Shown here piece by piece: positions 27,994 to 48,496 of a stretch of 64,000 bases of DNA (position 1 is the stretch's first letter; every line of letters starts with the position of its first letter). The notes under the pieces were generated by a model, which saw only the letters and a list, made by a program, of their open reading frames with translations, made no database searches and was not told the origin of the DNA. Origin of the DNA: Tepidanaerobacteraceae bacterium. Its GTDB lineage: Bacteria > Bacillota > Thermosediminibacteria > Thermosediminibacterales > Tepidanaerobacteraceae. The position numbers and the translations under genes were made by a program. The DNA lies in assembly GCA_029982615.1 (NCBI GenBank), contig JARRBK010000001.1, positions 1-64,000 of the forward strand. The letters are read 5' to 3'.

Positions 27994-29644
27994 TCAGCAG
28001 TGCTGGCGGGCAATACTTTCCACTGCCCGCTTCAGGAGCTTCGGAGCCACATTCAGGGAATAATCCAGTTCAAGCCTCTCGGTGTATTTGTGATCGTCCT
28101 TGCCCGAAGGCCCGATGTTCAATACAGGAACATCCAGTTTTACCAGATCATCTATCGGGATGTCATAAATATGCCCCCATCCGGGCATTTGATCCGACAA
28201 TGATTTGAGTTCTTCCATCTCACCCTGAAATCCAAAATAGCTAAGATCGGTAATCCCCGCAAAGCAATTCACTACTTTCATATCAATGCCATATTCTTTT
28301 TCCGCCACATTCACCACTTCATCGACAGCTTTTAAAACCATTTTTTCCTTCACGGTAGCCCCGGAATTTCTGCGGTGAGGGTAATAAGGCGGCAAAAACC
28401 CAATCACTATCATGGGGGCCTTGTGGGGATAAAGTTTCAGCAGTTCTCCCACCAGCGACATAGCTTTTTCCCTTTCGTCAAGGCTATCCGGCAGAGAATC
28501 CAAAAAGCTTTTCACATATTCCGACATATTTCCCGGGAAATCCCGCCTTACCTGTTCCAAAAGCTCATGATATGTAATTACCTTTTTCTTCCAGAGTATA
28601 TCAACATTTTTGCCGGTTTTTTCGGAATATACCGAAGCAGCCTTTTTTACGCGTTCAATGGCCATATCGAAAGCTTCTCCCGCTGCTTTTTTCATGGATT
28701 CCAGAATTTGAAGCGGCGTTCTGGACACCGTAAGGAGGTTATAATAAGCCACTGCCTTTTCCGGGAGCGTTACCGAATAAGATTCCCTCAAATCCTTAAG
28801 CTTCAGGCATGCAGGCGGTGGGAATATATTTTTTTCATCCCTGTCTGCAAATTCTGGATTTGCTTCCAGCACTAGGTTTAAACATGAGACCAATAGACTT
28901 GCATTCAAGCCCCCCAAAATATTCCCCTACATGGCTTTCTTTTCCTACCACATAAAAAAAGGGCATTATTTTCCCTATTGTTCCGGTAAATATATAGCGG
29001 TATCTGTCATCTGCAGCCCCTGGTCCTGACGGCTCGCAGTTAATGGCGACAGCATAATCGAGCTCGAATTTATCCCTTATTTGAACAAGATGAGAGAGAG
29101 CTTCCCTCATCCCGGTGGAATTGTTTTCCTCATCAGGCACCGCAAGAAACATTAGGTTTAAACCGAGCTTTCCCGGATTGGATGAAGCCTCAGCCATCAG
29201 CGCCATCTGAATGGCAAGGCCGCATTTCATATCCGAAACGCCCCTGCCGAAAATATAATTCCCCGATTCCAGGTCCCTTTTCGCCTCTTTCGGAAGGTTT
29301 TCTCTGTAAAGCCGCCGGGTATATTCCATCGGGTCAAAGGCATATTGTTTTAAAACTCCAAAACATTCCACATCCACCACATCGTAATGGCCTGTCAAAA
29401 TTACGGTCTTTTTTACCGCAGGTTCAGCTTTTATGAGTGCAAAGACTGTACTGCGGCCCAGAGATTCCTTTTTTAAAGGAAGCAATTGCAAATATTCGGG
29501 ATGAGCCTGAAAATATGCAAGTGATGCCAGCTTATGATAAATCTTCTGCGCCATCTCGACTTCGCCGGAAGTCGCGGAAATGCTGGGAACGGCTGTAAGC
29601 TCCAGCAACAGCTTAAATATGCCTTCACGGCTGTTTTCAATCAA
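27994..29644 (-). pseudogene. RocB-like M20 family peptidase interrupted by a single frameshift
   Basis: N-terminal ORF 28835..29644 (TGHYDVVDVE, GRGVSDMKCGL) and C-terminal ORF 27994..28917 join as EYFGG|LNASLL if the six-C run at 28910-28915 is reduced to five. Confidence 0.78.
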
Positions 29645-30117: not shown

Positions 30118-30148
30118 ATTATATCATATCAGGAAAGGGGGATTCTTT

Positions 30149-30385
30149 ATGGAAAAACTGCAAAATACAGTAAACAAAATCGCGCCTTTAGACCGGTCAG
30201 CTGCAGAAAAAGCGTCTCTAAGGCTCGACTCGCTGACCAAACCTCAGGGCAGCCTGGCATTTCTCATTATAGAAGCCGCAACCCGCATCCAGAGCGAAAT
30301 GGCGACTTTTGAATCTGCGGGTGTATCCGGAAAAATTATCGATGCAAACAACAAAGACGCCTTTGGCGCGGATGAATGCAGATGA
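30149..30385 (+). pseudogene. cobT: cobT remnant: N-terminus fused to C-terminus with the catalytic middle deleted
   Basis: 78 aa: CobT-like N-term (APLDRSAAEKASLRLDSLTKPQGSL) joined to CobT-like C-term (LIIEAATRIQSEMATFESAGVS); intact CobT is about 350 aa. Confidence 0.8.
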
Positions 30386-44934: not shown

Positions 44935-45468
44935 ATGAATGATTTTATAGAGCGCAAGGGCGATGTGACATTTAAAGGACAACCTCTGACAGCCGCAGGG
45001 CCTGTATTGAAAGTCGGTGAAAAAGCTCCGGAATTTGCCGCCGTAAACAACGCACTGGAAGAAGAAACGCTTTCTACCACTCATGGCAAGATAAGGCTTA
45101 TTGCTTCGGTGCCTTCCCTGGATACCCCAGTTTGTGATATTGAGATTCGCAGATTCAATAAAGAAGTTACTTCTTTCAGCCGTAATGTGGAAGTTATAAC
45201 GATCAGCATGGATCTGCCCTTCGCTCAGAAAAGATGGTGTGCCGCGGCGGGCGTAGAAAGGGTAAGAACTCTTTCAGACCACCGGCAGGCCTCTTTCGGA
45301 AAAAACTGGGGGGTTCTCGTAAAGGAACTGCGGCTTCTCCAGAGAGCTGTTTTTGTGGTGGATGAAAATGATATTTTACGTTATATAGAATACGTCAGAG
45401 AAATAGGCGAAGAGCCCGATTATGCTGCAGCTTTGAATGCCGTAAAATCTTTGACCTCGGAACAGTAA
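44935..45468 (+). CDS. tpx: Thiol peroxidase (atypical 2-Cys peroxiredoxin)
   Basis: VTFKGQPLTAAGPVLKVGEKAPEF, SVPSLDTPVCDIEIRRFNKE. Confidence 0.95.
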   Translation: MNDFIERKGDVTFKGQPLTAAGPVLKVGEKAPEFAAVNNALEEETLSTTHGKIRLIASVPSLDTPVCDIEIRRFNKEVTSFSRNVEVITISMDLPFAQKRWCAAAGVERVRTLSDHRQASFGKNWGVLVKELRLLQRAVFVVDENDILRYIEYVREIGEEPDYAAALNAVKSLTSEQ

Positions 45469-45603: not shown

Positions 45604-46107
45604 ATGAAAACGATGACAAAAGAAAATTTAAAGAGTGCATTTGCCGGCGAAAGTCAGGCCCATATGAAATATCTCATTTTTGCAGATACAGCCGAAAAGG
45701 AGGGCAAGCCTAACATAGCAAGATTGTTTAGAGCGATAGCTTATGCGGAACAGGTCCACGCCACCAATCATTTTAAAGCCCTGCAGGAATTAAACGGCAC
45801 TCCAGACAACCTTCAGGTCGCCATCAATGGAGAGAACTTTGAAGTCGACGAGATGTACCCAGCGTATGATGCGGTCGCAAAGCTTCAGGATGAAAAAACA
45901 GCCGAAAAAAGCTTTCACTATGCCATTGAAGCTGAAAAGATCCATGCCGCACTGTATGATGAAGCAAAAAAACTGGCTCAAAATGATAATGATATAGACG
46001 GAGAAGAAATTTATGTGTGCCCTGTATGCGGTTATACCGTAAAGGGCGCTGCTCCAGACAAATGCCCGATATGCGGAGTTTTAAAGGGCAAATTCGCCAA
46101 GTTTTAA
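45604..46107 (+). CDS. Rubrerythrin
   Basis: FAGESQAHMKYLIFADTAEKEGKPNIARLFRAIAYAEQVHATNH plus C-terminal rubredoxin-like CPVCGYTVKGAAPDKCPICGVLKGKF. Confidence 0.96.
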   Translation: MKTMTKENLKSAFAGESQAHMKYLIFADTAEKEGKPNIARLFRAIAYAEQVHATNHFKALQELNGTPDNLQVAINGENFEVDEMYPAYDAVAKLQDEKTAEKSFHYAIEAEKIHAALYDEAKKLAQNDNDIDGEEIYVCPVCGYTVKGAAPDKCPICGVLKGKFAKF

Positions 46108-46265: not shown

Positions 46266-46589
46266 ATGCCTGATTTTGGCAACCCGTTTTCTGGGCTTGC
46301 AAAAGACCGTAAACTCACTGAACAGGAACTTATTAGAGCTATAAGGTTTATGGTTGCTGCAGAGTATGAAGCAATACAGCTATACATGCAGTTGGCTGAA
46401 TCAACAGACAATGAATTGGCAATTGAAGTTTTAAAGGATATTGCCGACGAAGAAAGGGTTCACGCAGGAGAGTTTTTAAGGCTTTTAAAAGAGCTCGCTC
46501 CAGATGAAGAAAAATTTTATGCAGAAGGTGCTAAGGAAGTGGAAGAAGAGTTTTTGAATATACATAACAACAGAGCTAAAAAAATTTAA
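46266..46589 (+). CDS. Small ferritin-like protein (encapsulated-ferritin-like cargo candidate)
   Basis: EYEAIQLYMQLAES...IADEERVHAGEFLRLLKEL di-iron-type helices; directly upstream of encapsulin remnant. Confidence 0.8.
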   Translation: MPDFGNPFSGLAKDRKLTEQELIRAIRFMVAAEYEAIQLYMQLAESTDNELAIEVLKDIADEERVHAGEFLRLLKELAPDEEKFYAEGAKEVEEEFLNIHNNRAKKI

Positions 46590-46660
46590 CCGTGGGGGAG
46601 CTAAAAAACAATAATTGAAATGCAGGTGAAAAAGGCGGCATTTACCAATACCGCCGTGTT

Positions 46661-47169
46661 ATGTCAGATTTTCTAAACAGACAGTCTTCACCTCTTTCGG
46701 ACGAACAGTGGAAAGCGTTCGAGGATGCCATTGTCTCAGTAGCTAGGGAGCAGCTGGTGGGTCGCAGGTTCATACCCATAGTGGGGCCATTGGGAGCAGT
46801 GGCGCTCGCCGAGGACAGCCTTATTTTCAACGGCAAAGCAGAAATGGGTATATCTGGATGCCATGGTGACAAGCCCAAAATTGTTTGCCGCTCTGAACAG
46901 AGTATATAAAGATACTCCGTACCTCGAGCTGGACCGAATTAAAAACCTAATGGCCGCCGGCGTTTTTCAATCCCCTGCTATATGTTCCAACAGCGCGGTC
47001 ATCGTGTCAACCGGCGCTCAGAACATCGATCTGGTAATCGCGCTGGACTTAAACCTTGGCGTTTTTAAAGACTACAAAAATGAACCATACTTTCAGGGTG
47101 ATGGAAATGGTCATGCCGAGCATTAAAAGGCCGGATGCCATTTGCACCCTCGAAATGGAAAGGTGCTAA
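46661..47169 (+). pseudogene. Decayed family 1 encapsulin shell protein gene
   Basis: Pieces in three frames: MSDFLNRQSSPLSDEQWKAFEDAIVSVAREQLVGRRFIPIVGPLGA | VALAEDSLIFNGKAEMGISG | MVTSPKLFAALNRVYKDTPYLELDRIKNLMAAGVFQSPAICSNSAVIVSTGAQNIDLVIALDL | FRVMEMVMPSIKRPDAICTLEMERC*. Confidence 0.85.
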
Positions 47170-47193: not shown

Positions 47194-47529
47194 ATGGCAA
47201 AATGGCAGTGTTCAGTCTGCGGATATATTCACGACGGAGATGAAGCTCCTGATAAATGCCCAAAATGCGGTGCTCCCAAAGAAAAATTCACAAAAATGGA
47301 GGAACAAGCCGCATCTTTAGTGGAGCGGGCACGCTTTTCCAATAATCTTCATATGGAACTGCTCACACTGATGGAAAAGGCAAAAGAAATATGCGACAAA
47401 GGAATCAGAGACGAGCTCGATCCCGGCTGCGTATCCGTTTTTAAGACGGCAATGGCAGCAGCTTATGAAGTGCAGCAGAAGGTGAAAGCCGAGCTTAAAA
47501 CCCATATGAGCAAGGGCAAATGGGGTTAA
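47194..47529 (+). CDS. Rubredoxin-like domain protein with C-terminal helical domain
   Basis: WQCSVCGYIHDGDEAPDKCPKCGAPKEKF. Confidence 0.85.
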   Translation: MAKWQCSVCGYIHDGDEAPDKCPKCGAPKEKFTKMEEQAASLVERARFSNNLHMELLTLMEKAKEICDKGIRDELDPGCVSVFKTAMAAAYEVQQKVKAELKTHMSKGKWG

Positions 47530-47622: not shown

Positions 47623-47781
47623 ATGAAAAAATGGGTTTGCACCGTTTGCGGATACATCTATGATCCCGAAAAAGGCGATCCGGACAATGGAATTGCTCCA
47701 GGCACGGCTTTTGAGGACCTGCCCGATGATTGGGTTTGCCCAGAATGCGGAGTGGGTAAAGATATGTTCGAAGAAGCATGA
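47623..47781 (+). CDS. Rubredoxin
   Basis: [63 protein letters not shown]; below ORF-track cutoff. Confidence 0.97.
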
Positions 47782-47866: not shown

Positions 47867-48496
47867 ATGACAGATAGCAAAAATCCCGTAGTTATTATAG
47901 GTAACTGTGCAGCAGCAGTATATGCCATAGAAGCTTTCCGCGAGCACAATAAAAATACGCCTATATATGGTAATAAGCAAAGAACCTTACTTGGCATATT
48001 ACCGCATGAAATTGTCTCATCTTCTTGGAGAAAATCCAACGGTGGATGAAATTTTAATCCATAAACCCGAATGGTATAAACAAAACAATGTCGAAATTCT
48101 TCTCGGAACTCAAGCGTTGTCGATAAACCCTGTCAATAATTCAATTAAGCTTGACAGCGGACAAACGTTACAATATTCGTCCCTGCTTCTCGCCATGGGA
48201 AGCCATGCTTTTGTGCCGCCTGTCAAAGGCACAGATTTGAAGGGAGTTTTTTCTATCAGAACTCTGGATGATGTAAAAAAACTTTACCTGTATTCCCATG
48301 ATAAGGAAAAAGGAGTTATCATCGGCGGCGGAGTTCTGGGACTTGAAGCCGCCTGGGTACTATATTAATAGGGGATACCAAGCCAGCCATCAAGATATCC
48401 AACGCAATCAAAAAAAGAGTAAGCATCCCTCAGGAAATAGTAAAATCGAAAGATTTCAATCTTTTTTTAGAGAACCTTGCTTAAAAAATCAATGCG
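47867..48496 (+). pseudogene. FAD/NAD-dependent oxidoreductase (rubredoxin/NADH oxidase-reductase family), frameshifted and internally deleted
   Basis: N-term PVVIIGNCAAAVYAIEAFREHNKNTPIY, shift at about 47966, then MVISKEPYLAYYRMKLSHLL...GVIIGGGVLGLEAAWVLY, then in another frame GDTKPAIKISNAIKKRVSIPQEIVKSKDFNLFLENLA*. Confidence 0.78.

Follow-up and report, generated by a model that had tools for sequence, protein, structure and literature searches.

A recently inactivated encapsulin cassette in a Tepidanaerobacteraceae bacterium and its ferritin-like former cargo, possibly now a free protein

What becomes of a ferritin-like cargo protein once the gene for its encapsulin shell has broken down? 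The question is raised by a locus in an uncultured anaerobic bacterium of the family Tepidanaerobacteraceae (genome G000), represented by a MAG-like assembly of 1.82 Mb in 71 contigs that is 68.5% complete. The window, i.e. the whole stretch of 64,000 nt that was analysed, carries the genes for a thiol peroxidase, a rubrerythrin and a ferritin-like protein, followed by encapsulin remnants, the genes for an RCKP protein and a rubredoxin, and the remnants of a reductase gene (Table 1). For comparison, three genomes were central: G001 (Tepidanaerobacteraceae bacterium isolate A05DMB13), which belongs to the same genus; G009, from the same family; and G005, a congener of G009 and thus of another genus than G000, which is a single-contig genome of 99% completeness. 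With a probability of about 0.6, we read the locus as a family-1 cassette that was recently inactivated and whose 107-aa ferritin-like protein now works free, both parts taken together.

Table 1. Features of the cassette and its surroundings in the window
Feature	Position	Strand	Remarks
Thiol peroxidase	44935-45468		Intact in the window; named by eye
Rubrerythrin	45604..46107	+	Intact; upstream flank of the cassette
Ferritin-like (EncB/EncFtn-type) former cargo	46266..46589	+	107 aa, without C-terminal cargo-loading peptide
A7 run with cargo frame shift	46578..46584	+	From alignment with G001 and G009
Cargo-loading peptide remnant, out of frame	46583..46618	+	Reads NLTVGELKNNN
Encapsulin pseudogene ORF 1	46661..46909	+	Residues 1-46 joined in frame to 121-140; frame lost thereafter
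Encapsulin pseudogene segment 2	46858..47078	+	Covers residues about 182-254, with 85% identity to G001; reached via the 122-nt deletion
Encapsulin pseudogene segment 3	47053..47169	+	Residues 246-283, after the 1-nt insertion
Rubredoxin-like (RCKP/RUBY_RBDX) N-terminal domain protein	47194..47529	+	111 aa, intact
Rubredoxin	47623..47781	+	Intact
Rubredoxin-NAD+ reductase family (Pyr_redox_2 + Rubredoxin_C) pseudogene	47867..48478	+	Frameshift near residue 33 and 604-nt deletion

What remains at 46661-47169 derives from a single encapsulin gene of family 1 and EncA type (PF04454/NF041155). Encapsulin-like segments spread over three frames had been predicted from the DNA letters, and this was borne out: the ORFs 46661-46909 and 46833-47126 match PF04454 (Pfam) with E values of 2e-16 and 7.9e-14, respectively, and a third segment (47053-47166) aligns with residues 246-283 of the G001 shell. 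Since the segments match non-overlapping parts of the profile, i.e. 2-45, 170-235 and the C-terminus, chance is excluded. Both G001 and G009 harbour intact 283-aa shell orthologues in the syntenic position, and comparison with this locus, a check suggested along with the original prediction, showed what was lost. Relative to the intact orthologues, a 222-nt in-frame deletion at 46798/46799 removes shell codons 47-120 and joins the N-terminal segment directly to a mid-protein segment, as had been foreseen, while a 122-nt deletion at 46857/46858 causes the first frame change. At least two internal deletions and a 1-nt shift had been expected; the kinds of lesion were correct, but the shift is an insertion at about 47056-47059 rather than near 47090. 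In total, residues 47-120 and about 141-181 are missing, and the surviving parts share 76-89% amino acid identity with G001. The deletion junctions show 0-2 nt of microhomology, as in illegitimate deletion, and no assembly-type overlap was seen at them.

Instead of the full-length HK97-fold ORF of about 260-290 aa that characterizes a functional family 1 shell, the window thus holds fragments in three frames; by descent, i.e. by its match to PF04454/NF041155 together with its synteny with an intact orthologue, the gene belongs to family 1 as a pseudogene. The proposed pairing of a family-1 encapsulin with a ferritin-like cargo is likewise upheld by the profile matches and the intact syntenic copies. 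The shell gene is very probably a genuine and recent pseudogene and, as such, an ordinary one of a known system. The suggested search for a second encapsulin in the rest of G000 found none, an absence that is provisional in an assembly of this completeness. Two apparent cases of decay in other genomes were rejected: the split encapsulin match in G011 is due to a masked run of N, and the encapsulin fragment in G161 sits at a contig end. A literature search for encapsulins with pseudogenes or gene loss returned nothing relevant.

The ferritin-like ORF is real. It matches the EncB_fam model NF058679 with 97.6 bits (cut-off 90) and PF02915 with an E value of 1e-7, while its score for TIGR04535 (82.2) stays under the cut-off of 125. 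Its sequence matches M. xanthus EncC (structure 7s8t, E 8.7e-14) and P. furiosus EncFtn, and its predicted fold, modelled from one sequence with a mean pLDDT of 73.6 and with the two core helices as the confident part, agrees with both. By family and fold, the protein is therefore of the EncB/EncFtn cargo type. Its ribosome-binding site is preserved, as is the iron ligand pattern E..Y..ExxH, in which the R. rubrum ferroxidase ligands E32, Y39, E62 and H65 (PMC5012862) are matched in an alignment made by eye. Scans around the cassette gave only sub-threshold matches to RNA families and, for promoters and terminators at the locus, nothing beyond consensus matches.

The original prediction had taken this ORF to be intact, which applies to its body and not to its end. 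The orthologues carry an in-frame tag (NLTVGDLKNQ in the 116-aa protein of G001, DLTVGDLKNQN in G009) with the LTVG-type motif published as the EncB/EncC targeting peptide (PMC11202242). Compared with them, a 1-nt shift in the A7 run makes the window product stop at 107 aa with ...HNNRAKKI, and the LTVG motif lies downstream, out of frame. The C-terminus had been proposed as a place to look for a loading peptide; the peptide is encoded there, out of frame, so the window cargo as read is not packable by it, even given a shell. Of all the lesions, a frameshift of this kind is the one that could most readily reflect sequencing error or leaky slippage. The statement that the shell was destroyed while the cargo gene survived has to be amended accordingly: the shell is gone and the cargo body is constrained, with the targeting peptide frameshifted away. 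As it stands, the protein resembles the s-FLPs, i.e. a short EncFtn fold without targeting peptide and without functional shell, although the absence of a shell is provisional in this incomplete genome.

Damage had been noticed in the shell gene only, but it extends to the adjacent reductase gene, which had been missed. This gene is of the rubredoxin-NAD+ reductase type (closest solved chain 3klj), and a short TGGGT-like match is found at the junction of its deletion. In seven other family members without an encapsulin at this place, the reductase gene is intact and adjoins the genes for the RCKP protein and rubredoxin; therefore, the reductase operon predates the shell or is independent of it. 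Strict co-loss as proof of a functional link between shell and reductase was considered and is weakened by these shell-less relatives, which keep the reductase, and by G004, in which no reductase gene adjoins those for the RCKP protein and rubredoxin.

The corresponding locus of G005 retains the rubrerythrin, RCKP protein and rubredoxin genes, while it holds no cargo ORF; of the shell only fragments remain, which cover about residues 128-194 and 253-283, and the reductase gene lacks its N-terminal half. In its congener G009 the cassette is intact, and the decay in G005 is independent of, and parallel to, that in G000. The joint damage to shell and reductase in the two genomes is suggestive only. 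Just beyond the truncated reductase on contig 1 of G005 (L019, 437000-451000) lie an IS110-like transposase gene and a group II intron reverse transcriptase-like ORF, both named by eye; a D-Ala-D-Ala ligase-like gene in L019 is frameshifted. In G001, the thiol peroxidase gene beside the operon appears broken or truncated (L018 9600-9851; contig 35, about 78600-78850), while it is intact in the window, i.e. gene losses in this common antioxidant island differ by species.

Along the branch to this species, the cargo gene accumulated 2 nonsynonymous and 15 synonymous substitutions (omega 0.035), and the ferritin-like body is thus under strong constraint. The shell remnants show 11 nonsynonymous and 30 synonymous substitutions on the same branch (omega 0.108), compared with an omega of 0.176 for the shell on the G001 branch. 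Neutrality of the remnants over the whole branch is rejected (P about 1e-11), which under simple assumptions places the death of the shell no earlier than the final 6-16% of the branch; nearly the whole branch was passed under purifying selection, and the shell loss is therefore recent. Since the cargo constraint spans the whole branch, it is no proof of present function and may mostly be older than the shell loss. So many lesions with so few substitutions are unusual for drift alone, and a rapid deletion bias must be assumed.

The recent date suits the alternative that survives best, according to which the whole cassette is dying, including the cargo, whose ORF would be a pseudogene with its body still unhit and without present function. 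In line with it, the frame of the loading peptide is already lost, G005 has no cargo left at all, the reductase is broken too, and all cargo constraint could predate the loss of the shell. We nevertheless consider this unlikely, if not by a wide measure, given the few nonsynonymous changes in the cargo body, its preserved ribosome-binding site and iron ligands, and a shortened product that is as long as conserved free homologues. The constrained body, the lost loading peptide and the many close homologues without shell or tag argue instead for a cargo that probably works outside the cage. Given a shell pseudogene, the sequence data would favour a working free protein with about two chances in three, and an unencapsulated action of the cargo, as had been suggested, is plausible.

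It is improbable that the real gene is intact and that the lesions arose during assembly or consensus calling of a metagenome-assembled genome. In favour of such an artefact are the incomplete, MAG-like assembly, one lesion that falls within a homopolymer, and a number of lesions that is high for so few neutral substitutions. Against it, the 222-, 122- and 604-nt deletions, with their short junction matches, are neither k-mer joins nor homopolymer errors, the neighbouring genes are intact, and the same cassette has decayed in the single-contig G005. Assembly error is thus an unlikely cause of the shell deletions, these being clean, large and flanked by intact genes. Furthermore, the lesions are clustered, unlike spread-out sequencing error, most of the approximately 50 genes available for comparison in the window being full length; error throughout the contig was ruled out on the same ground. 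That a shortened shell or fragment protein still functions, e.g. like the family 4 A-domain encapsulins, is hardly credible: the first deletion is in frame and a C-terminal ORF (46863-47126) has its own ATG, but the frame is broken twice more, both residue stretches named above are absent, no such form occurs in any relative searched, and the parts lost in G005 differ.

Proteins of this type without a shell are common in the phylum. An EncB_fam protein over the cut-off was found in 48 of 399 genomes, 37 of which gave no family-1 encapsulin match, and the loading-peptide motif was not found in those shell-less homologues whose sequences were read. The nearest homologues of the window cargo are shell-free, tag-less proteins of 99-107 aa; over 95-98 residues, it is 94% and 92% identical to the shell-less proteins of G380 and G039, and 94% and 90% identical to the tagged orthologues of G001 and G009, respectively. 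Maximum-likelihood analysis placed the three cargo sequences together as a clade within a group of 27 members, 24 of them without a shell (an inner fork of 25 rows has support 99/99). It is therefore probable that an originally free protein acquired a tag and thereby became cargo. The shells of G001 and G009 are sister to those of four genomes from another family of the order (98/97), and beside the three of these that were read lies a tagged cargo of about 300-320 aa, which is a different protein. These larger cargos (L012 491-1462, L013 2328-3290, L009 1281-2183) contain repeated ferritin-like segments and have the tails FTVGSLKE, FTVGSLKD and FTIGSLRK.

Read most simply, the sequences would reflect the recruitment of a free protein as cargo and its return to the free state in this species. 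The cassette comprises cargo and shell and is placed between the rubrerythrin gene and the RCKP protein-rubredoxin-reductase operon. An ancestor of the genus pair would have taken a free ferritin-like protein, added a C-terminal loading peptide and packed it into the shell, and shell and tag would have been lost almost together in the species studied here. If expressed, the 107-aa protein may be a free two-helix protein of the ferroxidase or detoxifying type, without mineral storage, like its shell-less homologues. The reductase may have been lost through the same relaxed selection on, or deletion-proneness of, an antioxidant/iron island. As a tentative generalization, encapsulation of the ferritin-like protein could be evolutionarily reversible, i.e. 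the tag was gained and the shell entered before both were lost together here.

Among known systems, Myxococcus xanthus EncA is close to the intact shell of G001, which is 42-45% identical to Myxococcus-type shells and matches EncA structures (4pt2, E 2.7e-80). The cargo side likewise resembles EncB/EncC in its match to 7s8t and in its LTVG-type loading peptide. Unlike the Myxococcus system, the window has a destroyed shell and a cargo without in-frame loading peptide. Ferritin-like proteins that are short and have no targeting peptide are known (PMC11202242), and the window protein shares with the s-FLP of Nitrosomonas europaea (NE0167, 3k6c) the short, tag-less EncFtn fold, 3k6c being among its fold matches. 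It differs from the s-FLP in that shell-less proteins of the same phylum are closer to it in sequence, and in its past as a cargo, of which a remnant of the tag can still be recognised. With EncFtn of Rhodospirillum rubrum and Pyrococcus furiosus it has in common the two-helix fold and the E/Y/ExxH iron-site pattern. EncFtn oxidises iron alone and needs the shell for iron storage (PMC5012862); by analogy, the free window protein could oxidise iron and hardly store it, in which it would differ from these encapsulated forms.

If the preferred reading of a free former cargo is true, the locus offers a natural experiment on what a ferritin-like enzyme gains from its shell, with close species that have a tagged protein and a shell, an untagged protein without a shell, or no cargo, while the operon context is the same throughout. 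Furthermore, it implies that annotation as EncB family does not equal encapsulated, as most sampled genomes of the phylum with such a protein are without a family-1 shell. The interest therefore lies in the reversible packing of the cargo, the shell itself being a decayed member of a known system.

Decay by internal deletion is also seen in other genes of the contig, since the window at 30128-30328 shows a clean in-frame deletion of 858 nt, which joins the first ~46 codons to the last ~25 of a gene that encodes 358 aa in G001 and is CobT-like by reading of its sequence. Furthermore, a 555-aa gene at 28009-29644, peptidase-like by the same kind of reading, lies in two frames that change near 28889-28974, while its G001 orthologue is intact.
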